From: Naumovozyma dairenensis CBS 421
Lineage: Eukaryota; Ascomycota; Saccharomycetes; Saccharomycetales; Saccharomycetaceae
Assembly (NCBI RefSeq): GCF_000227115.2
Contig: NC_016480.1
Location: 434,001-498,000 of the forward strand
Reading direction: 5' to 3'
Length of the DNA stretch: 64,000 bases
Shown: positions 8,562-48,200 of the stretch, piece after piece
Layout of the letters: every line of letters begins with the position of its first letter
How positions within the stretch are numbered: position 1 is the stretch's first letter
Position numbers and translations under genes: made by a program
Notes under the pieces: model-generated
What the model saw: only the letters and a program-made list of their open reading frames with translations
What the model was told of the DNA's origin: nothing
The model's database searches: none

Positions 8562-9128
8562 ATGACAAAAGATACAGAAACCAAATCATATCCTGACGTC
8601 GCCGCTTTCGACTTGGACTTCACAGTTTGGCCATGTTATTGTGATACAAACCTTTCACCACCTTTCAAAGAAGTTTATAACAAAAATAAAGAAGTTCATA
8701 CATTAGTGGATAGCTGTGGGTACAAATTATCTTTCTATAAAGATATTCCTAAGATTATTATCGATTTGAAAAAAAATGGTGTTAGGATTGTATCTGCTTC
8801 AAGAACATGGGCTCCAGAAATTGCCAAACAGTGTTTAAGACAATTTAAAATTGAATATGAGGGACAAATTATACCAATGATTGAATTGTTTGATGATTTA
8901 CAATGGGGAGAAAGAAGTAAAATTGGTCATTTAAAAGATGCTTTGGTAAATATTTATGGACATAATGATTTGAAGCTATTGAAAGTTTGTTTATTCGATG
9001 ATGAAAGTAGAAATAAAGATGTAGAACGTTATGGTGTTAAATTCATATATGTTAAAGACTCTAAACATGGACCAAGTTGGCAATTGTACCAAAATTATTT
9101 GGATGAATATGACATTGATCTAGCTTAA
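8562..9128 (+). CDS. MDP1: Mg-dependent acid phosphatase, HAD family (Mdp1)
   Basis: Orthologue of YER134C, the yeast MDP-1 type haloacid-dehalogenase phosphatase that acts on phosphotyrosine and sugar or protein-glycation phosphates. The length is 188 residues against about 178 in S. cerevisiae. Motif I is DLDFT (D17 nucleophile, D19 acid/base) followed by WPCYCDT, typical of this subfamily. Motif II is in VSASRTW, and the late acidic motif is LFDDESRN. A GTG at 8556 is in frame, but ATG 8562 is the eukaryotic start. In S. cerevisiae this gene is the direct neighbour of GLC7. Here the two are separated by tRNA-His, EMP24 and an 8.5-kb accessory island. Confidence 0.94.
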   Translation: MTKDTETKSYPDVAAFDLDFTVWPCYCDTNLSPPFKEVYNKNKEVHTLVDSCGYKLSFYKDIPKIIIDLKKNGVRIVSASRTWAPEIAKQCLRQFKIEYEGQIIPMIELFDDLQWGERSKIGHLKDALVNIYGHNDLKLLKVCLFDDESRNKDVERYGVKFIYVKDSKHGPSWQLYQNYLDEYDIDLA

Positions 9129-10113
9129 ATCATTTATGGTATATTCTGATATTAAACAGTTTGACCAAGGGGACAGAGATATGGTTTCTTTTCCTCAAAG
9201 TACAAGATGAACTTTGTATACGCTTCTTCCTTAGGTTATTGGAACTGTTGAAATTTGGACACCGTCAACCAATTTAGTCAAGTGTTTGGATAATATACCC
9301 TTTAATGAAAGTACGCATTTCCCAACCAAAATTACATAATAAATGAATGACCAAAAGTGCCTCTAATTGATCGACCTTTACTTTTTTGCAAAGATAATTG
9401 CTTCAACTTTTTATACGTTTTTATAACATATATTGTCCTCTTTTTAAAAAATACCTTTTTCGTGTCTTTTAAAATGGAATCACACCAGTCGTAAAAATTA
9501 TGTTAGAAACATTTTAAAAAGCTATTCTCCTAGAAAAATTCAGTTTATTGCTCGTAACGTAATTTTATACTGGTATTAGATGTTTTATGATTTTTTGTTT
9601 ACTTTATATTAACATAATTTAAACAAAATTTGGATTCGACTAGCATTAAGACATTAAAATATAAGTGAGAAAAATAAACAATAGGTTTATATCAAGAAGT
9701 TAAAACTATAGAAACAAATATCCCTTTAAGCTAAGCTTGATAAAGTGAGAAGCGGTATAACAAAATTATGTAATTTACTTATTTGAAAGTTGCTTATGTC
9801 ACATATTGTTCAAAAGAAGAGATTCCGGATTGAGGTTGATTAGCCATCTTGAACTTTATAGATAATATAGTAAAATTGATACTGTGATTTTGTACACCCC
9901 CTATTTAAAAATAACTAAATAAATTAATTCTATTGTACATAGGAAATTTCGGAATGGTTCTTTCCATTTTGTTGTGTGTTTATATACAGTTTAGGATTGT
10001 GACCTAATTTTGTTTCTAGTTTCGTTCTTTGATTCATCATGAAAGTATTATATTGGCTTTACTATTCCTCGAGCCGCAGTTTCAACACATATGCTCTTCA
10101 CCGCTACAGTTAG
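9129..10113. other. AT-rich spacer between MDP1 and the first LTR
   Basis: Nearly 1 kb following MDP1. I see no coding frame, tRNA or repeat related to the rest of the window. It forms the left edge of the accessory island. Confidence 0.5.
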
Positions 10114-10349
10114 TGTTGGAATTTGGGACGTATATTAAACCATGTCGTATAACCCGATTTGATGTAATGTGCTGTTAAATTTCACAAGTATATAAGCGAG
10201 GATTTTTGTTCCATATACATTTTACATAATTAGATAGTACTTTCACCTATAAGAGGGAGAGGAGCAGACTGTTCTTACAGGGACATATCTGGTAAATATA
10301 TTCCATTCTCAAACACCGCGACACCCTCTTCACACTCAGATTATCAACA
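10114..10349 (+). mobile_element. Solo LTR of a Ty1/copia-like retrotransposon, copy 1
   Basis: A 236-base element beginning TGTTGGAAT and ending TATCAACA, the TG...CA termini typical of yeast Ty LTRs. It carries a TATATAAG promoter-like box near its middle (10189-10196). By hand alignment it is about 89% identical to the inverted copy at 10951-11186, with the same length. No internal domain, primer-binding site or polypurine tract adjoins it, so it is a solo LTR. Flanks are GTTAG on the left and ATTCT on the right. They do not match each other but do match the opposite flanks of copy 2. Confidence 0.88.
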
Positions 10350-10950
10350 ATTCTTGATGTTCGGAAGAGATATTGGATTAGGTAAGATCATCCATAAGCG
10401 CATAATATCTTTTAATCATTTACATCTTGGAACCTTATGATTAGGTAATCTTCTTTATTTCTTGATTCTTTTTTTGTCAAAACTCAGCTATACGGACACT
10501 GTCAACTATTTATTTGTAATAATGATAGTGATTAATGGCATAAAGCTATATAACATTATAGTACATATAGAATCTTCCTTCTTCAATTAAAAAGTGCGGA
10601 TGCATTAATATTCAAAGGCAGCAACAAAGTTTTGTTTATGCAGCCGATTAGAAGTGGATCTGAAGAGTATGTAAGAAGTGCTCAATGTTGTGAGAGGCTT
10701 CTTCTATTTTTTGCAAATTACAAATGATATATACCGATTGTGGTATCCAAGATGAGATACCACGTTATCATAGGCAGCTTTTTTAGAAGAGTTTTAGGAA
10801 AGATTTGGTTTAACTGTTAAGGAGGTAACTTATTCAAGATTAATATTATATATATATATATATATATATTGATAATTATTAATTCCTTATTATAATATTT
10901 TTTAAAGAAATAAAGTAGCTCAATAGAAGCCGTCAATAACAAGTACTAAC
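10350..10950. other. Segment between inverted LTRs, probably inverted
   Basis: About 600 bases bounded by the two inverted LTRs. No open frame. It contains a perfect hairpin, GTGGTATC (10740-10747) with GATACCAC (10756-10763), and a TA tract at about 10847-10869. The swapped 5-base flanks of the LTRs indicate that this segment was flipped by recombination between them. Confidence 0.7.
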
Positions 10951-11186
10951 TGTTGATAATCTAAGTGTAGAGACAGTAAATAGTTGTTGGAAAATGGAAT
11001 ATATTTACCAGATATGTCCCTGTAAGGACAGTCTGCTCCTCTCCCTCTTATAGGTGAAAGTACTATCTAATTATGTAAAATGTATATGGAACAAAAATCC
11101 TCGCTTATATACTTGTGAAATTTAACAGCACATTACATCACAACGGGTTGTACGACATGATTTAATAGGTGTATTAAGTTCCAAGA
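10951..11186 (-). mobile_element. Solo LTR, copy 2, inverted
   Basis: Reverse-complement relative of the LTR at 10114-10349, also 236 bases. Its 3' end TATCAACA is intact, while its 5' terminal TG has become TC. The central part is almost identical to copy 1 (one difference in about 147 bases by hand count), but both ends are much more divergent. The flanks on the + strand are CTAAC and AGAAT, the complements of the outer and inner flanks of copy 1. Confidence 0.87.
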
Positions 11187-11637
11187 AGAATCTCCAATAT
11201 AGCTTCGTTAATCTACCAAACGAGTCTAAACAATAATTATTATACATTATATTTTTCTACTTCAACAAGTTAAAAAACTACAAGTTTGTCGAGCTTTCAA
11301 TTTCATAATCACTAAGATACACTGAAGGTTAATTTTTTTGATTAATAAGAACTACTACTAATGTTGTTCTTGAGTATGACATGGCGCCGCTGAGTAAGGT
11401 CCGCTTAGTCAAGTGACACGCTTAGGTAACGGAGAGATACAAATAGCTTATGTAAATGATTTCTCAGCATAATACACATTATTGAGTTAAACATCGAGGT
11501 TTGGTGCTGTATAAAAGCCACATTGGTTTCTATGTTTATTCTATTTCTCTTGGTTTTTGCAGTTTATTATTTATGTTTTATAAAAATAACAAATATATCA
11601 ATAATAAACACCACACCACTCTATTAAAACTAAAAAA
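11187..11637. other. Spacer upstream of the GST pseudogene
   Basis: Right flank of LTR copy 2 and presumed old promoter of the ECM4-like gene. It is AT-rich just before the ATG at 11638. No other feature seen. Confidence 0.45.
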
Positions 11638-12697
11638 ATGTCCACTACTGAAACTACTTTTTTCGAAGAAACTATTTCTAAAACCCACGCAATATATAAG
11701 CCAGAGAGGGCAGATATTGGTTATATTTATCTGCAGGCTGCCCATATGCTCAACGTATCTGGATCACAAGATCATTAAAAAATTAACTGACGTTATTGGT
11801 GTCAGCGTTGTTCACTGGAAATTGGATAAGAAAACAGGTTGGAAACTTTTGAATGCAGGAGAAACTAAATTAGGAGAAAACGCCTTTAAGATTGATGGTG
11901 GTATCTTGAGCTCTCAGGATGACACCTCATCTCCCTTAGGTGATCTAGATGAGTCTAGTAACAGATTATTCAAGGATGGTACGTTTGACCCTCATTACGG
12001 CGTCACACAAATTAAGGAATTATATGATATGACAGATAAACAGTATAAAGGTGAATATTTCTGGCCTATTTTATGGGATTTGAAGACGAAAACCATTGTT
12101 AACAACAATTGGGACCAAATTGATGCCATCTTAAACAGTGCGTTTAATGATTTTGATGAGACAAAGGGAACTGTTGACATTTTTCCAGAGACTCTATCAT
12201 CTCAAATTGAAAAATATAATGAGTGGTTGTTTCCTCATATCATTGACGGAGTTTATAATGTCGGGTTGGCAGAAAAACAGTCAGTTTATGAAACCAACTT
12301 GATTAACTTTTTTAAAGATATGGACAAAATTGAAAATAAATTGAGGGAAGTGCATGATACATTGGCCAAGGAATATGGTGCTTCAAATGAGGAAGAGATT
12401 TTGAAGAGATTCTTCCTGTTCGGTGGCCAAATTACTGAAAGTGATATCAGACTATTCGTTACCATGATTCGATTCGATTCGATTTATGCAGTTCACTTCA
12501 AATTAAACTATAGATTGGTTAGAAGTGACTACTATTATATCCATTTATGGATGAGGAATTTATATTGGAATTATCCAGCATTTGGCCACACCACAGACTT
12601 TAACCATATTAAACTCTTGTATACACATGGAATGAGAAACATTAATCCAAACGGTATTGTGCCATTAGGTCCTGAATATGATATTTTGAAGTTATGA
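11638..12697 (+). pseudogene. ECM4: Omega-class glutathione transferase (Ecm4/Gto family), two frameshifts
   Basis: Relative of Ecm4/Gto2 (YKR076W) and Gto1/Gto3, the yeast omega-like glutathione transferases. The frame from ATG 11638 reads MSTTETTFFEETISKTHAIY, matching the family N-terminus. The conserved stretch GRYWLYLSAGCPYAQRIW, with the active-site Cys (S-A-G-C-P-Y), is in the next frame after a one-base loss near 11707. A second one-base loss in the A6 run at 11777-11782 moves to the third frame. From KKLTDVIGVSVVHW that frame is intact to the stop at 12697, ending PLGPEYDILKL. Each break needs one added base, so as written no full-length protein is made. The long C-terminal frame is open upstream only from a TTG. 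Either the gene is a recent pseudogene or both breaks are sequence errors. It lies beside LTRs and telomeric-helicase relics, away from any position I know for ECM4. Confidence 0.85.
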
Positions 12698-13539
12698 GGT
12701 ATCACCATAAATAATTATGTACAAGAATTTATATTATGTAAGAAAAAATACTCTTTCCTCTAGTAAGAATGCTGATGGCAGCTTTGTAAGCTAATTAATG
12801 TCGTATTTCATACTTGAGAATCGTTTAATGAGTTAAATGGAAGTAATAAAACTAAAGAATAAGTGAAAGCCAACTTGTGTCACCAGCGCTTTGAAATGGA
12901 TAGCCCTGACAACAAAGTGGTAAAGCTAAATAGAACATAGGTGAGGGTATAATGTGAATATTGAAGCTTCAGTTGTCAACAGCAACTTTATTTCAGGAAA
13001 GCATGAATTAAGGAAGGCCAAAATCGTATGGCTTTTGATCATACACCTAGAAATTGGTAAATCACTTTTTTTGGTAAGATGGTCTGGCGCAATTTTTTAT
13101 GTTTATCTGCCAAAGTCAAAAAAGAACAAGGTCAAAAGTCTACGTAAGTACAACATCCTCCAAAAAAGGGATAAACAACCAAATTTTTATTTTTGCCACA
13201 CAGAAACACACACTTTCTTTACAGTTTTCTCTCTCTCTCTCTTAGGAACACATATGGTCCAAAAGTGAATGTTAAGGAATAATAATTCAGATTAAGAATA
13301 CATTAAAGAATTGGGGTAATTCAAATAGACGAGAAATATTGGGTTATTGCTCATTTTCTGGTGCAAGAAAGAAATGGCGTAACGTATATAAGATATTTTC
13401 CAGTTTTAAATCATGGCATGGAGCAAAAATATAGTAGATATAAAGTAAATTCAATGAAGATAATCAATCTCAGGGGATAAAGAGATGAATACCCATAGAC
13501 TTCCCTCATTCCATGTCAATCAACACTACTTTTTGATCA
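12698..13539. other. Spacer between GST pseudogene and helicase relic A
   Basis: About 840 bases. The open frame at 12954-13268 has no recognisable domain and a composition unlike neighbouring proteins. Pyrimidine-rich stretch at 13210-13245. Otherwise nothing seen. Confidence 0.45.
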
Positions 13540-15470
13540 TGTTCAAACATTTACTTATGAATTCTACCGTAAAAGAGAAGAACCTTATAAAGTTAATGCG
13601 AGAACTGCTAGTAAATTCAGAAATATTTCCTCTCCCTTCAAAGTTATTTCTTTCAGATTGAAAGTAGGTCCTGTTAAATATTTATATCACCAAAACAACG
13701 TAGAGATCAAAAGGTGCAATGGGGAATGAAGATGAAGACGAAGAAGAAAGCAATCAACTTGTTGATGAGGAAGAAGACGCTGATGAGAATAAAGATGATA
13801 TCATTGTTCCACCTGTTAATATTTTCAATGATAGAAAAAATCTTACCGATCTAGATTACTCTCGTCAGATTTTACATCCTATTTTGTTTATTTATATTAG
13901 TACGAATAAAATGATTAATTACCATAGGTTTATGAAATTTATATATGAATATCCTTTATCATGAAAAGGGAAAAAATTGATCTTTAGGGATATGCGACGT
14001 GCTATGATAGGTTTGCTTAGGGAGCTTGTAGCTATAATAAACATTTTGAATTATTCAAAGAAGAGTATGCAGGCCACGATGCGATTACAGGATATTCTGA
14101 TTATGCTGTCAATCCATATAAAGCCAGACATACTCCAATTAGCAAAAGATCGGAAGTATTAAGTAGACTATGGCAAGAATGGTTAGGTTTGAGAACGTAT
14201 CATGAGACAAAGACAATCGAACCATTGTATAGAACTAAAGAGCCAAAACTACCAACCCTCACTCAATCTCTTTATGATATTGCATATGTGAGAAGTTCAT
14301 TCTTCTATGACTCTCGATGCTTATCAGAACAGGAGAATATGTTATTATTGGATATATACATGGGACAGGCAAATTTACATCCAATTCAGATTCTCCAAAA
14401 GATGATGCTTTCAATTGGTATAAGTTGCCAATTTATGCCCTTTCCGAAGTTGCAGCAAACAAGAACCAAATCTCCTTCATATTTGAACCAACCCTGAGTG
14501 CAAAAATTTTGACATTGCAGAAACTCTCCGAAATAAAATCGTCGTTAAAAGTTGGTGATTTTGATTCTATTGAAAATATGGAATTTGGTCCAGAAGAGCA
14601 GGACTTTAAATAGTCCACATATGTTGGTACTTCCGAAAATTTATTGAATCGAAAGTTTTGTGATTTAATTCACAAATGGGATGAAACAATGGTTAAACTG
14701 TCTCTCTGTTATTTGGTAATTAATGGTTTTGAAAAAATAAACGAGGATCTCTATAAAGATTTGAATATTGGTTCCATAAAGTGGTTCTTCAAAATATTGC
14801 TATTCACAAAGGTTTGACGCGCGTCATCGGACTAAAATATTGATGAAAAATATAGGGATATTCAAACAAGTAATATCGGTAAAGCGCATTGACATATCTG
14901 AATGTATATATTACCATAATATGTTAAAAGAGCTGCCATTGAAAGATGTTTATAAAGAATTGTGGAAAGAGGATTCTGGTTATGGCTTTACAGAAATGCT
15001 GCTCTTATGCTAAACGATATTTGCAATTATTTAGTCCTAGGACAAATAGAAAAATTGTAATTATTTCAAAGCAAACTGACGCAGCTGATGCTTTGCATGC
15101 CATGTTAGGAGATATATCGATTAAAATTACTGAAAAAATTGATATAAAAGAGAGGTTTAGGTTAATGGATAATTTCAGAGAGCAACCGAATTCCAAAATT
15201 TTGATTGGAACAAAAGTGTTGCTTGACTTTCCGAATGTTGAAAATGTTGCCCTAGTCTTATTAATGGATTATATGCCGACTATTTCAGATTACATTACCT
15301 TCTTCTCTATGATAACTAAGGATAACGGCATAATGAGTGCTATTTTTTGCCAAGGGTCATATTCAAAGATTCCATGACATTGGATTGTCCAACAAACCAG
15401 ATAAGAAAACTCTATGGAATATCCGCAACCCGCCCTGAAATTGTTGTAACAACTCCAATGAACTGGTAAG
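13540..15470 (+). pseudogene. Y'-element-type telomeric helicase relic, copy A
   Basis: A degraded relative of the helicase encoded by subtelomeric Y' elements (YRF1 family). Homologous blocks appear in order but in changing frames. They are: an acidic stretch then PPVNIF (13719-13840); LFRDMRRAMIGL, like the Y' FREMRQ block (13980); LWQEWLGL (about 14170); a Walker-A-like GTGK (about 14350); PIYALSEVAANKNQISFIFE, like the Y' stretch after Walker A; KILIGTKVLLDF, like Y' VLIGTKLVTEG (about 15200); and NQIRKLYGIS, like Y' EQVREFYGLE (about 15400). At least six frame changes or stops break it. The Walker B box, DEFH in active copies, reads NGFE. It is clearly non-functional. Homology is from recalled Y' sequence, and the left boundary is approximate. 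Confidence 0.8.
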
Positions 15471-16079
15471 AGACTTGTTAATTGAAGTCCATGGCGATGA
15501 TTGAATTGAGCTGATGCATTATTGTGGCTTCATTTAGGTAGCATATTTCATTACCTTCTAAGTTCTTATTGCACATTTTAAATTGTAACTATTAATTGCT
15601 AATCATACCAATATAATATAAAGATTAAGTAATTATATTTTCAATAGCGTACATCGAAATTCCAAAGTTTACAAACGTTTGGAAGAGTGTTTTTAAGTTT
15701 ATAATTAATTCATAAAATTTCCTTACTTATGAAAAAGTAGTTGTGGTAGTACCAATATTGAATGCATTTCAGAGTTAATGTGCTAATTAGGACTCCCAAA
15801 GGGTTGTTCCACATTAGGTGACGATACAATGTCTTAGATGGAGAGAGGTCAATGTATAATGAATCAAAACCTTATGATTTCCAGAAATAATAAAAAAATG
15901 ATCATAGTAATACCAAATATTCATATAATTTTAACTGTGTAGTTTCAATATTGTGGGTAAACCCAGGAGAGTATGTTTTGAATGTATGAGCTTTTGATAT
16001 TATGATTTGATTTAGTTATTCAATTTTTAAATTTCGGAACTATATTGAATATGAAAGTCGGTAAATTAGACGTCGACAT
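15471..16079. other. Spacer between the two helicase relics
   Basis: AT-rich, about 600 bases. I see no coding remnant or LTR. The boundary with relic B is uncertain. Confidence 0.4.
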
Positions 16080-17563
16080 TTAAAATAGAAGGAGAAGGAA
16101 TTTATGACCCCACAGGGATGAAAGTTCCTCCCTAGTTGGTGCCCTTGGTTTTGCTGTCAATAGAGATATCGTCCATTCCAAAGACTTTTCCTTTTTCGAA
16201 CAAGAAATGAATGTCGGTGAAATCAAGTTTATTGAGACAGATTTATCGATTTTACGCCAATTCCACCAGATCATACATCCAAGAATTCTATGGTACTGTT
16301 GTTGCGAGATATGATGCTTGTATTGATGAACTACGCCAGTATTTTACTGAAGTCTGGTCGGTTGAAGCTATTGCAGAGCCTTTCTTAAATTCTGGTTCCA
16401 ATGTCGCTTTGGCTAAGAGTAGAGTTGCACCAAAGAAGTTATTAATTTCTCTGTTCATAATTCTAGACTGCCATCGCAAATTCCTGAAACAATCCCAGGT
16501 ACCGATCTTAATTCTGAAGCTATTGCAAAGATTGCAGCTGACATAGGAGTTTGTGCTATGTGGATGGTGTATTTTACAGGTCTCTATAGATTTCCTGACA
16601 TGTTGGTTTTGAAATATGGTGGTAATAACAGGAATTTGCTCATTGACCCAAACTCTCGTTGCTTTGATGTAATTACTTCTTATTCGAAAACTATATGTGC
16701 CAATTTCATGTGCAAGAATTTAGATAAGAAAACCGCTGATTATTTGTTCCATTATATTTTTGTTGTGAGAGGTATTCTTAAACATTCCCTTGGTCCAGAT
16801 TACGATGGTATGAAGAGGGATTTGTTCAACGAGACTGAAGGGGAACCTGCTAATTATTTGTTGAACAATTTTGTAGCTAGATCCGTTGGTGATGGTGACT
16901 CTGAAGATGATTTTGGTCCTGTAAATATTCCAATAATGTTTTGAATTCTTTTATTTTTGCTGATGCTATTTCTCATTCATTGATGATTATCATAAATTCC
17001 AATCATGTTTGAAAGTTTACCCAATGCCTATCGATAGATCGTCGGGGTTGTCCTTTAGAGAATTGAGACACGATATGATCAACCTAGTTCGTGAGTATGC
17101 TAAGGTTGAAGGTGAAGATATGGATGTGCTGAATGTTAAGGAAAGACTAACTGGTCATTTTGCTGCTACAAGTCAACCTGTGTATGCCAATGATGTTGAA
17201 ACAGATAAAGGGTCGGATGAGTCGTTGGAAGAGAAATATGCTTCCTTAATCAATAATGCCTGGCCAAATTGGTTCGGATTTGGTTATGGCAAAGAAAGGG
17301 AAGATGGTGAGTCTGCTGTAGCTGAAAATGCATGTGTCAAGTAATATTTTTCATCAAATGGTTCTATTAAAGATTTATTTTTGGCTGATAAGAAGCGGTA
17401 TGGTAAAGACTTCCAATTTAGAGAGGGACAGTGTGATGTTGCTGTAGAAATTTGTCTATATGAAACTCGGATTATTCCTATTCAAGCTCTTCCCGGTTTT
17501 GGGAAAACTGTTCTGTTTCAAACTCCTCTGGTAACACTATCTTATGGTGACTTGCATACTTAA
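16080..17563 (+). pseudogene. Y'-element-type telomeric helicase relic, copy B, 3' truncated
   Basis: A second, separate copy in the same orientation as copy A. It covers the N-terminal half and the start of the helicase core. Blocks in order: a stretch to about 16560 in two or three frames; YDGMKRDLF (Y' has TERLKRDLC) and FGPVNIPI (16800-16940); SGLSFRELRHDMINL, the FREMRQ block (about 17045); WPNWFGFGY, the WIQWLGLES block (about 17265); and FQFREGQ then ALPGFGKTVLFQTPL (about 17410-17530), matching Y' APPGYGKTELFHLPL. Walker A is intact as GFGKT. The copy stops right after it at 17563, only 45 bases before the tRNA-His gene. It overlaps copy A in the FREMR to Walker A region, so the two are not halves of one gene. 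Several frame breaks; not functional. Confidence 0.8.
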
Positions 17564-17608: not shown

Positions 17609-17680
17609 GCCATCTTAGTATAGTGGTTAGTACACATCGTTGTGGCCGATGAAACCCTGGTTCGATTCTAGGAGATGGCA
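17609..17680 (+). tRNA. tRNA-His(GUG)
   Basis: A 72-base cloverleaf without intron. The 7-bp acceptor stem is GCCATCT with AGATGGC, and the discriminator base is A (A73). The A box is TAGTATAGTGG, the anticodon loop contains GTG, and the T arm is GGTTCGATTC. A T run follows about 5 bases on, serving as Pol III terminator. G-1 is not encoded, as usual in eukaryotes. I recall a tRNA-His gene near GLC7 on S. cerevisiae chromosome V, so this is probably the ancestral location and marks the right end of the accessory island. Confidence 0.96.
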
Positions 17681-18360
17681 TATTATTTTTAGTCTTTTTG
17701 TGATATATTTTTATGACCGATAATAAGAAACGACACACAAGCGAAGAAAAAGAAAAGAGAAGAAAAAGAAAAGAGAAGAGAAAGAAAACAAAAGAAAAAG
17801 AAAAGAGATGAAAGGTTTTCCTACGGGTTATTAGTGTACGAGACGTGGCAGCAGAGCCGGTCAAGAGCAACGGAATTGAATAACTCATGGATATATAATA
17901 AGAGGAACTTTTAGAGGATATATCTAAAAGTTCGTCTTCTTTTAAATATGTTTAAATAAGAAAATAATCAAGTAATAAAAATACTATCAATTTAGAACAC
18001 TTTGTGTCACGGTATAATTCCTATTATATTACACTTTTGTAGTTATTTTCACTAAATTCTGTAATAAGGTCATTGAATTCTTATGAACTTCATATAGTTT
18101 TAGTAATACAGTTCTGTATTATAAAACATTCCTTCTTCCGGTATCCTATCCAAAATATCAAGAATTAGAAATAGAAATACTATCTACAATTATTGATGGC
18201 GCTTTATGATTTTGTGAACCATTGATACAAAGTATAATAATATTTTCTTGTTTTACATCTTTCATATAGAATGCAAAAAGAACCTGGTCATTTTACTAGT
18301 CTGTTTATAATCTGTTTTTTCATAAATGTGGGTAAGTTTTTATTTATATATACAAATAAA
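17681..18360. other. tRNA-His to EMP24 spacer
   Basis: Contains the purine-rich tract at about 17738-17815 and the 3' flank of EMP24. One copy of GATGGCGCT at 18195-18203. No gene seen. Confidence 0.5.
17738..17815. repeat. Purine-rich low-complexity tract
   Basis: Nearly pure A/G stretch of imperfect AAGAAAAGAG units just downstream of tRNA-His. It encodes nothing sensible on either strand; a possible triplex-forming or nucleosome-disfavouring tract. Confidence 0.7.
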
Positions 18361-18972
18361 TTAAACATAAGAAGTAACTTCGAAGAATCTTTTCAAATAA
18401 TAGATTTGGAACAAAGAATTGGCAACAACAACACCAACTTGGAAAATTGACCACCACTTAACACGATCATTAGTAGATTCAGCTGTATTTCTATGAGTTC
18501 TTTCTCTAATAACAATATAACTTTGTTCATTTTGAACTTCTTTAATCAATTTTGATAAAGTTCTAACGGAACCATCCAAAGATTCATTATTTGGATCATC
18601 TACATTGACATAAACAGTACCATGAATATTGAAAGTGACATCTTTTGTTTGAACATTTGAATTTTCATTAATGAAACAATATTCAAACTTACCACCATCA
18701 GGAGCAGAAATTGTAACTTCACCATGAGCTTGATTGACAATACTTTGTAAAACTTGAGTTCTACCGGGTGTATATAAGACAAAATCACCAGTCAATTGAT
18801 TTGATGATTGTGGATCTCTATCCCCGAATTGGAAAGATACGGAAAATTCATCACCTTTACTTAATTTTTCAAAGAAACAACGACGACCATAAGCTGGTAA
18901 TAGGACATTATGACCTAAGGTAAATGTTGTCAACCAACATGAAATGATCAAAATAATAGAATTTAACTTCAT
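18361..18972 (-). CDS. EMP24: p24-family COPII cargo receptor Emp24
   Basis: Orthologue of Emp24 (YGL200C), the type I membrane protein of the p24 complex that packs GPI-anchored and other cargo into COPII vesicles. It is 203 residues, the same length as the yeast protein, when started at ATG 18972. Longer in-frame starts upstream lack the signal peptide at the right place. Order: signal peptide (about 1-20, IILIISCWLTT), GOLD domain beginning HNVLLPAYGRRCFFE with the conserved cysteine pair (RRC and FEYC), coiled coil, RTHRNTAESTNDRVKWWS, one transmembrane segment, and the tail KRFFEVTSYV with the FF export signal. The gene belongs to the YGL track of the duplicated region. Confidence 0.97.
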   Translation of the reverse strand: MKLNSIILIISCWLTTFTLGHNVLLPAYGRRCFFEKLSKGDEFSVSFQFGDRDPQSSNQLTGDFVLYTPGRTQVLQSIVNQAHGEVTISAPDGGKFEYCFINENSNVQTKDVTFNIHGTVYVNVDDPNNESLDGSVRTLSKLIKEVQNEQSYIVIRERTHRNTAESTNDRVKWWSIFQVGVVVANSLFQIYYLKRFFEVTSYV

Positions 18973-20168: not shown

Positions 20169-21678
<1,510 letters not shown>

Positions 21679-38593: not shown

Positions 38594-39604
38594 TTATTTA
38601 TTAACGTGTCTTTTCCCTCTCTGCTTATGTTTATTCTTATCAATAACCTTCGAAACCCCTCCACTTAATCTTGCTTTTTTTTCGTGACATTTAAAATGTC
38701 GAAGCATGTTACTTTTAACATTAAATGCTTTCGTGCAACCTTTCCATGCACATTTGAAAGGTGTGTCTCCACTATGAATTAAGTAATGAGTCTTTAAAGT
38801 AGATGGTCTTGAACATATTTTACCACATATATCACATTGTTTTTTATTCTTTATCTTTGGGTCACGGTAGATATTTGCAAGTTTAGATGAATCGCCGTAC
38901 ATGCACCCAATACTGTTAGGGTTTTCTTCGAAATTGGCTACACCATAGTTATTAGTTGGCAATGTCGGAGATGACATTATAGACGAAGAGGACAGTGAAC
39001 TTGTGGAAGAAGGTGTGTTAGAACAGAGTGGATGATACGGTACAGTTACTATGAATGGTCGACGTGGTGCTACGTTTATAGGTAACGGCTCCAAAGCAGA
39101 TAATCTTGGTGCTGGACCTACCAGTGTTCCTGGGGGTGGCGGGTTTTGAGTAGAGTAAAAATTGGCAGTGATCCACTGTGTCTGAGGAGTTTGCGTAATC
39201 ACCGGTATTGTTTGGGGGTAGAATTTATTAGCAGCTTGAACTTGGACAATGGGCGTCTGTACCATAGAAAACGTATATGGCATGCCAGCTGATGAACATA
39301 ACTGTGGTGGCCTAGAAACAGCAATATACTGAGGCTGTGGAGTTAAAACCGTCGTTGTTGTAGGATTATGTGTATATGCCAAAGGGGCAGGTAGCTTCGG
39401 TGCTTCAGCCGATTTATGGTGGTACTGGTACCGGTCTGGTGTTCGAAGATGCTGATAGTGTTGTTGCAACGGTTCGGTTTTCGTAACATTGCTATCGATA
39501 TTTGAAACAAGAGCAGCGATTGATGGTAAAACTATACGATCACTTCCCAATTTTTTGGTTTCTTGGTAATAGTTAGTAAAAGGTAAAATAGGCTCTCGTG
39601 ACAT
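38594..39604 (-). CDS. CMR3: C2H2 zinc-finger protein of the YPR013C/YPR015C family
   Basis: 336 residues with two C-terminal C2H2 fingers: CDICGKICSRPSTLKTHYLIH and CAWKGCTKAFNVKSNMLRHFKCH, shown here as overlapping family motifs. They are followed by a basic tail (KHKQRGKRHVNK). The N-terminal two thirds are rich in P, Q, T and S without a known domain. The finger pair is characteristic of S. cerevisiae Cmr3 (YPR013C) and its tandem paralogue YPR015C, putative DNA-binding proteins of unknown role. The neighbour TIF6 (YPR016C) is on the same strand, as in S. cerevisiae. Which of the two paralogues this represents cannot be told; the single gene here is probably the ancestral copy. Start at the first ATG, 39604. 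Confidence 0.82.
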   Translation of the reverse strand: MSREPILPFTNYYQETKKLGSDRIVLPSIAALVSNIDSNVTKTEPLQQHYQHLRTPDRYQYHHKSAEAPKLPAPLAYTHNPTTTTVLTPQPQYIAVSRPPQLCSSAGMPYTFSMVQTPIVQVQAANKFYPQTIPVITQTPQTQWITANFYSTQNPPPPGTLVGPAPRLSALEPLPINVAPRRPFIVTVPYHPLCSNTPSSTSSLSSSSIMSSPTLPTNNYGVANFEENPNSIGCMYGDSSKLANIYRDPKIKNKKQCDICGKICSRPSTLKTHYLIHSGDTPFKCAWKGCTKAFNVKSNMLRHFKCHEKKARLSGGVSKVIDKNKHKQRGKRHVNK

Positions 39605-41983
39605 CCTGTTTTCTTAGCATTATGAAAATGGTATTATACTAAGTTGAAGTAAAACTAGCTGATTAAGGTAGTATGAAAAAAAGGAAATGAATTCAGTTGA
39701 ATAAAAAAAAGTTGCAAAGAAAGATGTAGGAGAAGTCTGAGAATCATACATAATGATGAAAAGCTGAAAAACCCAAAAAAGACGGTATTTGTTCCTTTGT
39801 ATTTATATATTTAACACATAGGTTCACGGTTATCGTCCACGTCATTAAGGTGTTGAAGTAAACGAAGCATCCCATGACGAATGCAAGTAATTCATGTGTC
39901 CCAAGAAGAGTACTGTGGACTATGTGCGGTGTACCTTGGAAAAGTTTCAACCAAACAAAATAAGACGTATTCTCTTACAATCCTGCACAGATTTAATAAC
40001 GTTTCTCATAGTTACTGCCGAGTTTGGACGTTCTGAACTGGAATCTGGAGGCTTCACCCGGTTTAAAAAATACCAACGCAACTATATCTTCGTAGTTCGT
40101 TGTTATATTTGCGTCCTGCGTGAAAGGAGAGAAAATTTTTGTTGGGTTTTCCATTTGCGTCCGCCGCTCAAATTCTCGGATGCATTTTGGAGGATTGTTC
40201 CCATTGTCCTTCCCAAAGTGGCCTGTCTAAGTATCTCTTTAGGCTTTTTCCGCCTTCTTAAAGTTCGAGAAGACAATGGAAAAAGTGCACGGACCACAGA
40301 CGAAGATAACCTTTTAGGTTTATAATACGTAGAATTGTCAAAAAAATTACGTGCTTATATCCGTACCTCCTTTTATCTCCTGAGAAGGGAATATCTCCAC
40401 GTAGGGAAAGACAGCGCTGGCAGTTTCTCGAAAAATGTGAAACGTTTGCCAAGTATAGAGGTACTAAAAATGATGCGCACAACCCTCCATAATTCTTAAG
40501 GGTGCCTCCTTACCGAAGTCTATTTGATAAACTTAATTAAAAACGAATCAATGGGAATACTTTGAAATCCCCTACGTACATCTGTCTGTGCCTACGGTGT
40601 TTATCAAAACCTGATTTTCATCTAAGAGGAACTGTGCATACGGGGAAGATGGAAGTTAGGTAGTTTTTTGACTAAAGTGTAATTTACTTTCCATTGTGCA
40701 AAATTTGTTCCTTTTCCATTGCAGTGTTGAAAGTACAATATGTACCATAACTTGTTATCCGAAGTGCAATTTTTTGCCGCCCATCCAAGAAAGTCACGTA
40801 GATTTTCAGTAAGTTTGGGTAGGGAGTCCACAGTTAACACTTAGACATGGGATTACGTAGAGCATTATATAGTTTTGAGAAAAATGAAAGAAGGTTTAGA
40901 TTAATAACGAATCGTCTTGCTTATTTTTACGCTTTCATACGTATAGAGGGGGGGGAGGCTAAAATTCATTTGATTTGCTATCAACTCAATTAAAGTTGAC
41001 CCTATATTAGTATAGCTTGTAAGCAAAACGTTGCTTTTGTTTTGGGGACGATGAAACCTACCTTAACCTATATTCTAAAAAGGTTAGGTAAGAGGGCTTA
41101 TTTATTATAGGTATAACTATGTGATAGTTGTATCCTCATTTTGTGCCAACAGTAAGGCGTCATTGAGGACAATATTTTGAGATATTACATTTTAGACCAA
41201 ACATGAGAGACCACATTTTATTTCTCTCTTCATTTATGAACATATGCAATTATAGTTTAATTTTAAGTAGAGAAGAGTTTACGTCAATTTACCTCGAATA
41301 CTGTGAAAACGTTAAGCGCAATAAGGATTCAGTACCATACGAACTTAAAATGCCGTATAGTCACCATAATATAGTCATAAGTTTTACGTACGTACGTACC
41401 TACCGTGGGACAGGTGTTGGACGACAGATCTATCTTCTTGTGTAAACAGAAACAAATTGTGCTAGTGACCAACGTACGCTTAATTTATTTTATGTTGATC
41501 CTTACACATGATTTATGGGTAATTGTATATACTCTACATCGATCGTTTAGGATTGACCCCCATTTTATGCACGGGATCCATTTAAGATAATAAAAAAGTC
41601 TCGAAAAACTTACTTACATACGTACGTAGGTATGTACTTGACAATGCTACTTATTTTACAGGAGCCTACTGCAGCATTTAACATAGTGATGTCAGAACAC
41701 AATTCACTTTCCGAAAGGTTGTTCCGTTTTCGTTTTTCCGTCTATACTTGAGATTTCATGTGGGATGATGAGGCCTCCCTGTAAGTCAAAGAAATATGTC
41801 GACCCAGAAGAAAAGAAACAAAAAAAGAATAATCTTTTATGGATTAATACCAGTATTAGTCAAAAAAATGTGAGTATATTATACTACAAAGTAATTAAAT
41901 AAAAAAAAATTCTCCAAAAAAAAAATTATCAAGTACATGCTGAGGTAGATTAAAAAACATGGTATAGACGAAATGCATAGAGA
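39605..41983. other. Gene-poor spacer, 2.4 kb, between CMR3-like gene and TIF6
   Basis: Contains the CMR3-like promoter and the 3' flank of TIF6. A 143-codon frame at 39894-40325 lacks domains and was not accepted. TACGTACG repeats occur at 41395-41409 and 41619-41628. A G10 run occurs near 40949. TTTCCGAAA at 41708-41716 recalls a centromere core but lacks the rest. Confidence 0.45.
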
Positions 41984-42721
41984 TTAAGAATAAGTTTCGA
42001 TTAAAGTATCACGCAAGTTACCAGAAATAGCATCTGGATGAGCATCTTGTAGACGGAAAATACTTTCAATCACACTTAATTCTGGAGCAGTTGTATCCAA
42101 CCCAGTGACAGCTAAGTAATCATTTACAACCATACCAGCACCGACAACGGAACTACCACGGTTAACTGTACCTGCAACTAATGGGACTTGTAAAAGAGAG
42201 GATAATTCTTCTTGATCTTGGATAGTAGTTTGTGGATGAACTAACCCACCTTGATTACTCAACGCACAGTAAGAACCAACCAATATATTACCTGATATAG
42301 TTTGACGGAAAACTTCGACACCCAAGACATCACTTATTAATTCTTCTGTTTCTCTGTCGATATCTGGATGTACTAAAGCAACGTAATCGTTACAACAGAT
42401 AACGTTACCTAATGCAGATAATCTTTCTTCGACTCTTTGAATCTTGACTGAATCTGGTAAACTATTTCTTAAATGCTGTAGTTCTTGATCTGTAGTTTGT
42501 GTTGGAACTAATAACCCCCTACGGTTACCGGCGGTCATTCTACCAATGATACGTGTACCGGCGATGGTAGTATGTGCTATTGGGATGGCATCTCCTAATT
42601 CAGCTTCGAATGCGGAATAGAAATTCTCAGATCCACCAAGAGCAACTAAACAATAAGTGTTTGTTAATTTGGAGAAGACACCGATTTCGTTGGAGTTTTC
42701 AAATTGGGTTCTGGTGGCCAT
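41984..42721 (-). CDS. TIF6: Ribosome anti-association factor eIF6
   Basis: Orthologue of Tif6 (YPR016C). It binds the 60S subunit in the nucleolus and cytoplasm, is required for 27S pre-rRNA processing, and blocks premature joining to 40S until released by Efl1/Sdo1. It is 245 residues, identical in length to the yeast protein. The N-terminus [21 protein letters not shown] is family-typical (here one residue over two motifs: [12 protein letters not shown] and IGVFSKLTN). Repeats of the five-fold pentein are visible ([53 protein letters not shown]). Codon use is strongly biased. An RRPE lies about 250 bases upstream. Confidence 0.98.
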
Positions 42722-43551
42722 TTTTTTTCTCTTTCACTTGATTGATTGATTGTTTGATTGTTTGACTGTATGCTTTTTGCAGATTAATGTTTTCCTTGTA
42801 TAGTCAGTTATAACTATTGGCTGCCGTTTGTGGATACTATCAGTTCCTGACGGATGGAAGATAACGAACGAGTGTTGGATCTGATATAGGTTTTATAACA
42901 AATGGGGAAGAACATGGAATACCCACTAAAATATGTAAGTAGAGTGGGGGATTTTGATTGATATTTTAATGAAAAATTTTCTTCTGCTTAAAAACGAAGC
43001 ACAGTCAGGGTAACACCCACCTCGATGGCGCTTAAAAAAAAGGATGATGAACTAAGTAACCCGGAAAATAGGCATACTATAGAAATATAACAATTGAAGC
43101 TTACAATAACGTTACAAGAACAATAGTAGTAGGAGTTCCACTGTGAATTAATTATTGACCCACAAATGTGTCCTCTTAAATTCTTTGCAATCGCGTATTT
43201 GTACATAAAATGTTATTGCTTAATGCATCAACAGGTCTTCATACAAAACATCATAGAAACTGATAGAGGTCTATTCTGATGGATCATTGTTAACCTAACA
43301 TAAAATGTACTGATGCCAGTACCATAACAAGTAGGGGCGCAAATTGGTTCCGCAACAGAATAATGCTACTCTTGAATTTCTACTCCCCCATTCCAGGTAA
43401 CAAATCCCCTGTGGATATATATATATATAAACATGAGCCTAATGATTGACCTGTAGACGCGACATGCTAATAGGACTTTTCGCCGTAGTTTAGCTGTCTA
43501 TATAAATGAGCCGCATCCGGTTCCGATCCTTATTTGTTTTCTCCAGTATTC
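42722..43551. other. TIF6 promoter and ARP6 3' flank
   Basis: 830 bases. Holds the RRPE at 42970-42980 and one GATGGCGCT copy at 43024-43032. A (TA)n stretch lies near 43417. No gene seen. Confidence 0.5.
42970..42980. promoter_or_regulatory. RRPE upstream of TIF6
   Basis: TGAAAAATTTT, a perfect ribosomal-RNA-processing element, about 250 bases before the TIF6 ATG. This fits co-regulation with other ribosome-assembly genes, as in NCL1 in this window. Confidence 0.6.
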
Positions 43552-44871
43552 CTATAGCCAATTTTGGTACCCAAACTTATGTTTCGTTAACCAATCAGGT
43601 CCATGTTCATAGTACTCTTCTTTGCTGATTCTTGTTTTCTTGTACGAGTCGGTATTAGCAAACTGGCACATCGATTTCCAACTAAACAGCTCGCATTCCT
43701 TCTTAGGAACAGAAATCCTACATGTCCAATCTGTTGGTAGTTGCCTTTGCAGTTCTGCTGCTAATCGAGCAGCAAAATGTGGTAGGTTAAAGTTCCCTCC
43801 AGTACAAACGATGTTTGCTACCAACAACGGACGTAATATCTCAGGAATCATGGACAAACTTTCTAGGATTGTTTCAACAATACCTGGTTTTAATATTCTG
43901 GAAATTTCTGGGTGGAAAAAGGTCTCTGGAACTGAGAATAATTCATCATATAATTTTACCACTTGAGAACCTTCTGGCAACGGCTTCGATTTATTCTCTC
44001 TGGTATAGCCAAGATAGGAACTAGATATATCTGGTAATATATATTCAACAGAGGTTTCTTCTTTCGCTTTGAAACTATCAAAATACGAAGTAGGGCTGAC
44101 AAATAAACATTTCTCCTTTATATTATTTACCAATAGAGTCTCATCCATTAAGTCATAATGTCGAAATGATAGTGTCTCTTTAAGGAGCCCAGTTAAAAAT
44201 CTTCCTCCTATGTCTAGTTTCTTGATCGCTTTGTAATAAGGTACTCCTTTAATCATCGGTATTATCCATGTACAATTGAATCCAGAGTCTATTACTAATT
44301 CATAATCTTGATAGTCATTACTGAATTTTTTTTTATCGTCTTTCAAATTATCCGTGGATATCGTAACATTTTCTGATTGACCTATCATATCATCGTCATT
44401 TTTCTTCCCTGATATAGTATCAAGAAGAACCTTGCGATCATCTGCTTGAACGCCAAACGGGATATAACCTGCCGTAGGCGCTTTGAACAAACTATCGAAC
44501 TCGTATTCCTCGAATATCACTTGATCCATATTCTTGCTTAACTCAGGTAAAGTCATGCATGGTTCACTAACTATCAGATGTTTCTTTCCACTTCCCCCCA
44601 ATTCAAACCCATCAAATTCATCAGGATTGTAAAGACAGTAATCCCATATACAACTTTCTAATTCCCATGATGTCAATTGGCCCAATTCATGTGGTCGTCT
44701 CAGAGTGACCTCAGAGACTTCTTGAATCTTTTTCATTTGGTTGGATAAGTAAGCTGAACCATACTTATCAACAGCAAAGCCATTCAAGGCCCTATACGGC
44801 CTTTCAGAGTTCGATAATCCAAATTTTATTTCATAGGAACCATTATCAAGTACTAAAGGCGTACTATCCAT
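43552..44871 (-). CDS. ARP6: Actin-related protein Arp6 (SWR1 complex)
   Basis: Orthologue of Arp6 (YLR085C), the actin-fold subunit of the SWR1 remodeller that, with Swc6, supports exchange of H2A.Z into nucleosomes. It is 439 residues against 438. The nucleotide-binding phosphate loops are LVLDNGSYEIKFGLSN near the start and LVIDSGFNCTWIIPMIKG in the middle, followed by KLDIGGRFLTGLLKE. The late actin motif IVCTGGNFNLPHFAARLAAEL is present. A short charged insert (about 160-185) precedes the second phosphate loop. It diverges from SMC4 across 336 bases, the same pairing as YLR085C-YLR086W. Confidence 0.97.
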   Translation of the reverse strand: MDSTPLVLDNGSYEIKFGLSNSERPYRALNGFAVDKYGSAYLSNQMKKIQEVSEVTLRRPHELGQLTSWELESCIWDYCLYNPDEFDGFELGGSGKKHLIVSEPCMTLPELSKNMDQVIFEEYEFDSLFKAPTAGYIPFGVQADDRKVLLDTISGKKNDDDMIGQSENVTISTDNLKDDKKKFSNDYQDYELVIDSGFNCTWIIPMIKGVPYYKAIKKLDIGGRFLTGLLKETLSFRHYDLMDETLLVNNIKEKCLFVSPTSYFDSFKAKEETSVEYILPDISSSYLGYTRENKSKPLPEGSQVVKLYDELFSVPETFFHPEISRILKPGIVETILESLSMIPEILRPLLVANIVCTGGNFNLPHFAARLAAELQRQLPTDWTCRISVPKKECELFSWKSMCQFANTDSYKKTRISKEEYYEHGPDWLTKHKFGYQNWL

Positions 44872-45207
44872 CGTATATAATAACCCTTGTTGATATACAG
44901 TGCATATATTTAGCCTTCATTATCATCTTCATCTAACTATGGAAATATTTGACTATTCAAAAAAGTATACTTAAACGTTATATGGTTCTACTTTTCGCAT
45001 CATCAACACTTCCCGCGAGATCAAATTTGATCTTTATTTGTTTACATCTTTGGGCAGAATTTCTTCGAACCTCATCGTTAGCAGATCCAATCTATTTGAA
45101 ATATTACGTAGAAGACCACTCTGCTATTCATTATTAGTAGCCTATACGAATTGGCCAACTACACCTAACAAACGGCTTCCATATAAAGCATTGTGGCGTA
45201 GAGGGAA
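44872..45207. other. ARP6-SMC4 divergent promoter
   Basis: Shared 336-base intergenic region. No further motif that I would defend. Confidence 0.5.
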
Positions 45208-48200
45208 ATGCCTGAATCAACAAATATACCCTCACCAAAGAGGCAAAAGGTATTAGAATCACATACCCCCGAACAACAAGAGGAAAATCGTCGAGAAGAC
45301 GATGAATCCCCATTAAGGTTTGAACATCAACAATCAGCAGTCTCGTTGTCTCCACCAGCAATTAGTAAATCACACACACCTCGAAAACTTATCTTACATC
45401 AATCAGATAATCGATATGCCTTTTCACAACCAACAGTCTCCGCATCTTCGTTACAAGTCCCTAGTTTACAGCCACCAGAAACATCATCATCATCATCAAG
45501 AGGGCGAAGAGATATCAAAGTATATTCTCAATCGCCACCTAGATCTCCGGGAAGATCTCCGACTAGAAAATTGGAATTGATCCAATTATCTCCAGTGAAA
45601 AATAATAGGATCAGAAAATTACAAGAGTTATATAATTCACAAATTAAAAAGGAAAGATTATTTATTAACAAATTGGTATTAAATAATTTCAAGTCGTATG
45701 CCGGTGAGCAAGTAATTGGACCGTTCAATACGAATTTTTCTGCAGTAGTAGGTCCCAATGGTTCAGGTAAGTCAAATGTTATTGATTCTATGCTATTTGT
45801 CTTTGGATTTCGAGCTAATAAAATGAGACAGGACAGATTATCTGATTTAATTCATAAATCGGAATCTTTCCCTAATTTACCATCATGTTCTGTGGACGTT
45901 GAGTTCCAATATGTCGTAGATAAATCGAATGGATCATCTAAAATCGATGACAATAAACCAAAATTGATTATAACAAGGAAGGCATTTAAAAATAATTCTT
46001 CGAAATATTTTATTAATGGGAAAGAAAGTAGTTATACCGAGGTTACTAAACTTTTAAAGGAGGAAGGAATCGATTTAGACCATAAAAGGTTCTTAATTTT
46101 GCAAGGTGAAGTGGAGAATATTGCGCAAATGAAACCAAAGGCAGAAAGAGAGGGAGATGATGGATTATTAGAATATTTAGAAGATATAATAGGAACAGCA
46201 GATTATAAATCATCGATTGAAAAGAATACGATAGAGGTGGACACACTGAATGAAATATGTATTGAGAAGGAAAACCGATTTGAAATTGTTGAACGTGAGA
46301 AAAATTCATTAGAAAGTAGTAAAAATGCAGCACTAGAGTTCGTCAAGAAGGAAAGACGATTAACATTATCCAAATCGAAACTATTACAATATAATATTCT
46401 TAAGGAACATGAAAAACTAGCTTCTACATTACAGAAACTGTCTGTATTGCAAGAGGAGTATCAAAATGAGTCCACTAAATTTGAAAATACTCAAAGAGAA
46501 ACAAATAAGTTGGAGGATAATTTTAAACAAATGAATAAGAAAATCGTCTCCATAAAGGAAGATATGAAAAATAATACTTCAAAAAAGAGGGAGTTACAAA
46601 ACAAAAAGGCATCACTCGAAGAAAAAATTAAAAGTTATACCAGAAAGAAAGAGAAAGCTTCGAAGTCAATAGCACAAAGTAAAAAACTATTAAAGAACTA
46701 CAGAAACGAAATTGAAACATTAAATGTTGATCAACAGGAGCGAGAATCTAATCTACAATCTCTGCTTTCAGAATTGAAAAAGGAAAAGAATGTTTTAGAA
46801 GAGATAAAGCTGTCATTGAAAGATAAAACAACGGACATTTCAAATGAAATTGCACAGCATGAAAGGGAACTTGAGCCATGGAAGAAGCAACTTCAAGAAA
46901 AAAAATTGGAAATTCAGGTCGCTGAGTCCCAAATTTCATTATTACAAGAGAACCAATCAAAATTAAAGGATGAGATAGAGAAGTTGAAAAATGATTTAAA
47001 ATGCCAATTTGAAAACAAAAAAAATCAAGAAGAGAAGTTGATTGATCTTAAAGTACAGTTCTCAGCTATCTCAACTGAATTTGACCGTGGTGAATCTGAA
47101 TGTGCTAATGCCAAGAGCAAAATAAAAGATATGCAACATGTTCTACAAACGCAACGACAGAAGGTGATGGACGCAAGATCTAGGTTAGCAACAGTAGAAA
47201 ATAAAAGTAAAGTTTTAAGTGCTCTTCACAAGTTACAGAAGTCTGGTCGTATATCAGGCTTCTACGGACGGTTGGGTGATCTGGGTGTCATTGACAATGA
47301 GTATGATATTGCTATATCAACGGCTTCTGCCAGATTAGATGATATAGTGGTTGATTCCGTTGAATGTGGACAACACTGTATCGAATATCTTCGAAAGAAT
47401 AAATTGGGCTACGCAAGGTTTATTCTTCTGGAAAAATTGAGGAATTTGATACTAAAAAGAATACAAACTCCTGAAAACGTGAAGAGGTTATTTGATCTGG
47501 TTAAACCAGATAAGGACATCTTTATTCCTGCATTCTATTCTGTTTTAAGAAATACCTTGGTCGCAAAAGATCTAAAGCAAGCCAATAGAGTTGCATATGG
47601 TGCAACCCGTTTCAGGGTTGTAACTATGGATGGGAAGTTGATTGATATCTCTGGTACTATTACGGGTGGTGGTAAACAAACGGCACAGGGTTTAATGAAA
47701 TTAAGAAAAAAAGGCCAGGAAAATATAGATATTTACAGTAACGACGACATAGAGAAGATTGAAAAAGAACTTGTCGAAAGAGAAAATAACTTCAAGTTTG
47801 CTAACGATACCTACTTCGAAATGGAGCAAGCATTGCAACGCCTAAAAGATCGCAAACCTGAGCTGGAACTAGAAATATCAAAGTGCTTGATGGATACTGA
47901 TATATCTAGTAAGGAATTGGAATCAACTCAAGATCAACTCAAGCAAAAAATAACTTTCTATGAGAGACATACCCAAAATAAAGATGAAGTAGTTGAAATT
48001 GAACACCAATTGAACCTTCTACAAAAAGAATATCAACTATTATTAGATAGTACTAAGAATATAAGTGAGAAGATCGATAAGCTCAAAAAAAGAATAATGG
48101 AAATCGGAGGAATTGACTTACAAATGCAAAACTCAAAAGTGAATTCAATAATACAAAATATCGATATTATTAAATCGAAACAGAAGAGAGGCATTTCTTC

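Follow-up and report, generated by a model that had tools for sequence, protein, structure and literature searches.

Subtelomere-like DNA with two broken Y'-type helicase genes at an internal chromosomal site in Naumovozyma dairenensis

The stretch of DNA analyzed here, referred to as the window, comprises 64,000 nucleotides of contig C2 of Naumovozyma dairenensis CBS 421 (C2:434001-498000; C2 is 1549475 bp long in a genome of 13.53 Mb and 11 contigs). It lies at an internal position of C2, not at a chromosome end, and contains no N. A first-pass annotation, made from the sequence alone, had placed two decayed genes of the Y'-type telomeric helicase at 13540..17563. Both relics were confirmed, and the chromosome-end-like DNA to which they belong was found to be larger than that interval, with a left edge at about 10.4-10.6 kb and a right edge at 17551. 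Within this block a broken glutathione-transferase gene is followed by a Y' copy of one subfamily (A) and then by a truncated copy of another (B). The features of the block and the tRNA gene beside it are as follows (LTR, long terminal repeat; L and R after a contig name, its left and right end; ORC, origin recognition complex).

10133..10352, + strand: dispersed LTR-like repeat at the left edge of the block; many genomic copies, inverted partner at 10948-11167 (91%)
10568..10677, + strand: stretch like the C2 right end, left of the second LTR-like repeat; 94.5% to C2:1535975-1536084
10948..11167, - strand: dispersed LTR-like repeat, at the same position at the C6 left end (DNA similarity)
11608..12694, + strand: glutathione-transferase-like pseudogene (Pfam GST_C_2 3.1e-7; tblastn)
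13171..13702, + strand: 5' region of copy A, with a Sir1 domain within it (DNA similarity to C3L, C6L and C3R)
13694..15745, + strand: remainder of copy A, an acidic region and a degenerate helicase part (DNA similarity, tblastn, codon comparison)
15746..16116, + strand: joint between A and B, common to the array at C2:1008 kb (DNA similarity)
16117..16279, + strand: copy B piece 1, 5'-truncated (DNA similarity, Sir1 profile search, tblastn)
16266..17551, + strand: copy B piece 2, ending before the DEFH box (sequence, DNA similarity, tblastn)
17609..17680, + strand: tRNA-His(GUG) (ARAGORN)

The relics were mapped by tblastn using the intact A-type protein from the C2 right end and an intact B-type protein of the same genome as queries. 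Copy A was recovered as eight same-strand pieces in changing frames between 13316 and 15501 (best E 7e-170), and copy B as four plus-strand pieces, again in changing frames, between 16111 and 17560 (best E 1e-132). Because their coverage overlaps and both lie on the plus strand, they form a tandem of two relics and not one split gene, as had been proposed. Copy A starts further left than the annotated interval: its DNA resembles A-type 5' regions from 13171 on, and most of the Sir1 ORC-binding domain, which spans 13322-13687 (C2:447322-447687; PF11603 2.5e-24) and includes two stops, lies upstream of that interval. Relative to the intact C2R gene, copy A has six frameshifting indels and four stops in the 604 codons compared, and about 1.4 kb present in the end copies is missing at a junction at 13694-13702. 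Copy B runs from a point within the gene (16117) to 17551, and at its own junction (16267-16279) about 0.64 kb of the end copies is absent; the end copy closest to its second piece is that of C9L (82.8%). The profile search listed no Sir1-domain match for copy B of the window.

Assignment to the Y' helicase family was upheld by the intact relatives, which match proteins labelled as S. cerevisiae (Saccharomyces cerevisiae) and as Yrf1-6p or Y' element helicase. An intact B protein matched the S. cerevisiae-labelled protein P0009 with an E value of 3.5e-240 (44%), and a search with P0011 returned Yrf1-6p and two NDAI proteins, with the Y' element helicase label among the matches. By Pfam, an intact B copy has the full architecture of Sir1 ORC-binding, DEAD and Helicase_C domains. 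The Y' family itself is already known, and S. cerevisiae Yrf1 also carries a Sir1 domain. A PDB search with the B protein gave only generic DEAD-box-type relatives among the best 60 of 120 rows; Pfam PF11789, considered as a Y' family entry, was dropped, being zf-Nse with no bearing here. Copy B retains its Walker A motif, as the first-pass annotation had it (PGFGKT at 17492-17509, read from the sequence), and is cut before the DEFH box. The annotation was also right that copy A has NGFE in place of DEFH, so that the Walker A and DEFH pair is complete in neither relic. Its view that copy A had lost this box, however, did not hold: the intact A-type gene at the C3 left end reads NGFE as well, and since intact end relatives share the altered motifs, the ATPase boxes of copy A were not lost by decay.

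The remainder of the block also resembles DNA found near chromosome ends. C2:1535975-1536084, the match of 10568..10677, lies 13.4 kb from the C2 right end, and 10375-10638 matches C7:17114-17391 (75%). Window positions 10951-12971 match C6:5619-7649 at the C6 left end, and 11084-12971 match the C2 right end, both at 91%. The transferase gene is found near both of these ends, 5.6-7.6 kb in from C6L and 11.5-13.4 kb in from C2R; its window pseudogene, which we take to be of the omega class, has a frameshift near its start, and the open C2R gene aligns with it in two frames (86% over 334 aa, tblastn). A 5' fragment of A followed by B also occurs at the C3 and C5 right ends, and the order transferase gene, A, B recurs at C2:1006-1016 kb, where C2:1008243-1010810 is collinear with window 13717-16279 (90.7%). 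All three window genes are oriented as such genes are towards contig ends. Only 57 bases separate the last Y'-like base (17551) from the tRNA-His gene.

Genome-wide, where all copy counts are lower bounds, a DNA search with the originally annotated interval gave at least 28 matches, itself included, and protein searches gave at least 41 with the B-type query and at least 49 with the A-type query. Copies lie within about 12 kb of at least 8 of the 22 contig ends (C2R, C3L, C3R, C4R, C5R, C6L, C9L and C11L), and at 8 of these 8 they read towards the end. An S. cerevisiae-like telomere-repeat pattern had 0 matches genome-wide, although this pattern may not be the N. dairenensis repeat. The suggestion that the family also occupied other internal sites was borne out by both DNA and protein searches, which placed copies at least 50 kb from an end at eight places besides the window locus (C2:447 kb): C1:66, C1:172, C2:106-113, C2:344, C2:1008, C3:461 (98 bp only), C7:668 and C8:952 kb.

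These copies differ in kinship. In a tree of 11 B copies (about 1 kb aligned), internal and end copies are mixed and the internal ones do not form one clade: C2:1008 groups with the C3 and C5 end copies (support 100), while the window, C1:66, C2:344 and C9L copies fall elsewhere. Tip branches range from 0.02 for C2:344 through 0.12 for the window to 0.18 for C1:66. These unequal branches and separate kinships suggest inserts of different ages and sources. In the window and at C2:1008, A and B meet at the same joint, and the two A copies have three frameshifting indels and one stop position in common. The two arrays therefore either descend from one that was already broken or share tracts through exchange. 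The window block extends further left (into C2R/C6L-like DNA) and the C2:1008 block further right, so neither is part of the other.

Copy A is itself a mosaic. All 23 sites that unite it with the C3 left-end gene fall in 14249-14830, whereas 113 of the 116 sites that unite it with C2:1008 lie outside that interval and 3 inside; 4 further sites unite it with C2R (Fisher 2e-23, for an interval chosen once the sites were known). The pattern suggests either that copy A later exchanged sequence with a chromosome end or that its donor was already mosaic. The ratio of nonsynonymous to synonymous substitution rates (dN/dS; here and below by a simple counting method with no significance test) is 0.24-0.25 on the copy A branch, which is low for a broken gene. 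Because the middle tract resembles an intact end copy, the figure was not used to date the decay.

That the site lies between conserved genes, as claimed, fits the flanks, with domains assigned by search and set against the presumed S. cerevisiae gene order. The flanking features are listed below.

8562..9128, + strand: left flank gene of acid-phosphatase/MDP-1 type (Pfam Acid_PPase 9.5e-46), presumably the YER134C ortholog
9804..10088, strand not assigned: dispersed repeat, probably a solo LTR (genomic copies at up to 92% identity)
17774..18036, strand not assigned: dispersed repeat, probably an LTR remnant (>25 genomic copies)
18361..18972, - strand: right flank gene (Pfam EMP24_GP25L 1.1e-47), which we take to be EMP24
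20169..20600, - strand: right flank gene, C-terminal part of a PP1 phosphatase (PDB PP1-2 4.8e-94), presumably GLC7

Synteny was judged from both flanks at five of the nine internal places (C2:344, C2:447, C2:1008, C1:66 and C1:172), using the presumed S. cerevisiae gene order and flank identities largely backed by domain or structure searches. The data fit a kept order at four of the five (all except C1:172). We take the flanks to be MRPL3 and MSS1 at C2:344 (with YMR027W, PEX12 and CSI1 beyond), CCT2 (END3 beyond) and MKT1 (OST3 and TCB2 beyond) at C2:1008, and GRX1 and LSB5 (MXR2 and STE50 beyond) at C1:66. The searches supported END3, Cpn60, MKT1, OST3/6, mL44, MnmE, Pex12, an ARMT1-like protein, Ste50, SelR, glutaredoxin, Acid_PPase, EMP24, PP1 and S26e; Pfam gave no match for the CSI1 and LSB5 candidates, and PDB gave none for MKT1. 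Because its flanks fit a conserved gene order, the window block looks like an insertion and not a telomere fusion. At C1:171191-174227, a Y'-like open frame of about 800 aa with a DEFH box lies between genes of STE3 and TOS1 type. These are presumably unlinked in S. cerevisiae, so the locus may mark a rearrangement, and its Y' copy perhaps sits at an old rearrangement point. Elsewhere in the window, 38594-49455 includes an old synteny junction near 38-42 kb, where the order presumably switches from the YER130-134/YGL190-200 genes to a TIF6/ARP6/SMC4 set and where no match was listed in the Y' searches.

Insert sizes run from about 2.5 kb at C1:66 to about 10 kb at C2:1008, and two inserts, those of the window and C2:1008, include a neighboring gene. 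The left edge of the C2:1008 insert matches the C5 right end (94% and 88%), and its array contains two N gaps that hide the 5' part of its A copy. Within C2:343816-349746, the C2:344 insert lies between two tRNA-Ala genes of identical letters, beside a many-copy LTR-like repeat. The surroundings of the second tRNA-Ala gene are shared with C2:896 kb (87%), so recombination between tRNA loci may have contributed. This insert carries an open frame of 1121 codons with a dN/dS of 0.21 against C9L (both lineages averaged), and its 5' part has 10 stops. A tRNA gene adjoins two of the four inserts with kept synteny (the window and C2:344), and C1:66 has next to it a repeat of about 0.6 kb that also occurs at two further sites. 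At C2:106-113 kb two B-type copies, both about 99% identical to the C3 right end, are arranged tail to tail with a 20-N gap between them (C2:109150-109169). Both outer sides of this region (C2:103000-112999) resemble contig ends, and the pair reflects either a telomere fusion or a scaffold misjoin.

Our favored reading, with a probability of about 0.72, is that the window block stems from part of an N. dairenensis subtelomere, of which a DNA copy was placed between the YER134C and EMP24/GLC7 orthologs. The observations behind this reading are the homology, order and orientation of the genes, the similar array at C2:1008, the separate kinships and branch lengths of the inserts, and the mosaic structure of copy A; the copying event we infer from them. 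Copies that point in the same direction, flanks from one ancestral block, an extra gene and repeats carried along, and a right end inside a gene argue for copying into an internal break as opposed to fusion, retrocopying or transposition. The site would have been just upstream of the tRNA-His gene, among LTR-like repeats, and the event was most likely the repair of a break (or stalled fork) at this tRNA/LTR site with subtelomeric DNA as the copied source. The left side was perhaps begun from LTR homology and the right side joined without homology. Decay would have followed, perhaps with later exchange with an A copy at a chromosome end. Several points weigh against this scenario. The synteny case uses a presumed S. 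cerevisiae order, and the window genes to the left of YER134C presumably come from other ancestral places, leaving a left flank of one gene. The left edge of the insert is placed approximately, at about 10.4-10.6 kb. Given the three indels and the stop position common to their A copies, one of the window and C2:1008 blocks may be a copy of the other, so that they would not both stem directly from a chromosome end. Finally, the B copies at C2:344 and C1:66 start within about 6 bases of each other (BLAST ends), a coincidence not expected under random capture, and the C2:344 copy reaches about 150 bases beyond its stop codon, as a transcript might.

This last feature would suit a Y' RNA that was reverse transcribed by the Ty machinery and integrated near tRNA genes, as would the position of the window insert beside tRNA-His and the 5' truncation of the C2:344 copy between its tRNA-Ala genes and next to an LTR-like repeat. 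In S. cerevisiae, Ty1 can mobilize Y' RNA according to a review (PMC7175516). However, intergenic DNA and a separate gene upstream are part of both the window and the C2:1008 block, the window block includes repeats and has its 3' end inside a gene, and the inspected 3' ends of the compared inserts, that of C2:344 included, show no poly(A). In addition, no tRNA gene was found in C1:62-75 kb or within 6 kb of the C2:1008 block (the nearest found, at C2:999.2 kb, is 6.3 kb off), and we consider this route distinctly improbable for the window. A former chromosome end made internal by telomere fusion, or a translocation or inversion breakpoint in a subtelomere, is unlikely, though less so. The convergent pair at C2:106-113 has the shape of a fusion and the C1:172 copy lies between supposedly unlinked genes, but at C2:344, C2:447, C2:1008 and C1:66 the genes on both sides belong together in the presumed S. 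cerevisiae order, and in the window both copies point the same way within flanks that fit one ancestral block. Such telomere cycling is a described route for internalized subtelomeric genes in yeasts, according to a gene-order study (PMC3141009).

The first-pass annotation had raised the idea of a family of mobile or capturable elements, of which the capturable half fits better. A Y' unit with its own ends moving between internal sites would account for the several internal loci and for the common 5' end of two copies. No conserved terminus was found in common among the four internal inserts whose ends were compared, however; apart from that shared start they end mostly at different places in the gene, their subfamilies and cargo differ (an unrelated gene is carried along), and the internal copies are not one clade, all of which makes a defined mobile element very doubtful. 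An assembly artefact is hardly credible: N gaps do occur in C2:1008 and at C2:109150-109169, but there are none in the window, whose copies differ by at least 13% from every end copy over the aligned stretches, although part of copy A is within 2-8% of C3L. The internal copies are thus best explained by repeated capture of subtelomeric DNA, an indication that sequence from chromosome ends can be copied to internal sites.

Comparison with known systems sets these loci in context. As in S. cerevisiae Yrf1, the intact B copy has its Sir1 ORC-binding, DEAD and Helicase_C domains in the same order, and intact copies lie at contig ends; unlike Yrf1, the window copies are internal truncated pseudogenes and subfamily A has altered motifs. 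In PMC3141009, chromosome ends are inferred from gene order to have become internal, with no telomere-like DNA left at the rearrangement points of the species studied. The N. dairenensis loci likewise place subtelomeric genes internally, but the Y' DNA itself persists and the flanking order seems kept. PMC7175516 also describes breaks in S. cerevisiae that can capture Ty1 cDNA. Both its systems resemble ours in placing DNA at new sites, with a tRNA/Ty neighborhood at two loci, and differ in that ours are sizeable inserts in a reference genome, two with a neighboring gene. Among the titles and abstract openings searched, no description of internal Y' copies in Naumovozyma was found. Sequence of chromosome-end type can still be recognized at several internal sites, and most sites judged for synteny have kept their gene order, so the route, age and later exchange of such inserts can be studied.

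Subfamily A probably represents a pseudo-helicase that keeps the Sir1 ORC-binding domain, judging from its two intact members at the C2 right and C3 left ends (1216 aa each, 89% identical). Their Sir1 domains match Pfam at 3e-32 and 6e-31, while Helicase_C is marginal (7e-5) and DEAD gives no match. Helicase motifs I, II, III, V and VI are altered in both, with Walker A and DEFH absent, whereas the other 12 aligned proteins keep recognizable motifs wherever their sequence reaches (P0006 has GET for GKT, and the C1:172 copy has PEYGKT). The dN/dS of the pair is 0.31 over 1215 codons, with 0.57 in the Sir1 stretch, 0.23 in the middle and 0.27 in the helicase part, consistent with a non-catalytic protein under selection. 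The Sir1 stretch, having the highest ratio, is the least constrained, which argues against ORC binding as the function that is kept. Only two A-type proteins were listed in the protein search, yet B proteins were also missed, so this has little bearing on A-type genes elsewhere. A broader proposal, possible but tentative, is that Naumovozyma combines repeated internal capture without gene-order change, partly at tRNA/LTR-rich sites, with ongoing exchange with the ends, and that one Y' branch has become a selected pseudo-helicase. Its Sir1-type ORC-binding domain on a dead helicase scaffold may serve end silencing or origin control instead of unwinding. Subfamily A would then be a testable case of a telomeric helicase turned non-catalytic ORC-binding protein.

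Further Sir1-domain proteins were seen in the genome. A third Y' subtype, more distantly related, is found in C11:664-5340, where an open frame of 1576 aa includes a Sir1 domain. At C4:1210955-1212604, C10:765081-766724 and C8:1848-2201 there are open frames (621, 643 and 529 aa, respectively), each with at least one Sir1 domain, that are perhaps Sir1/Kos relatives.

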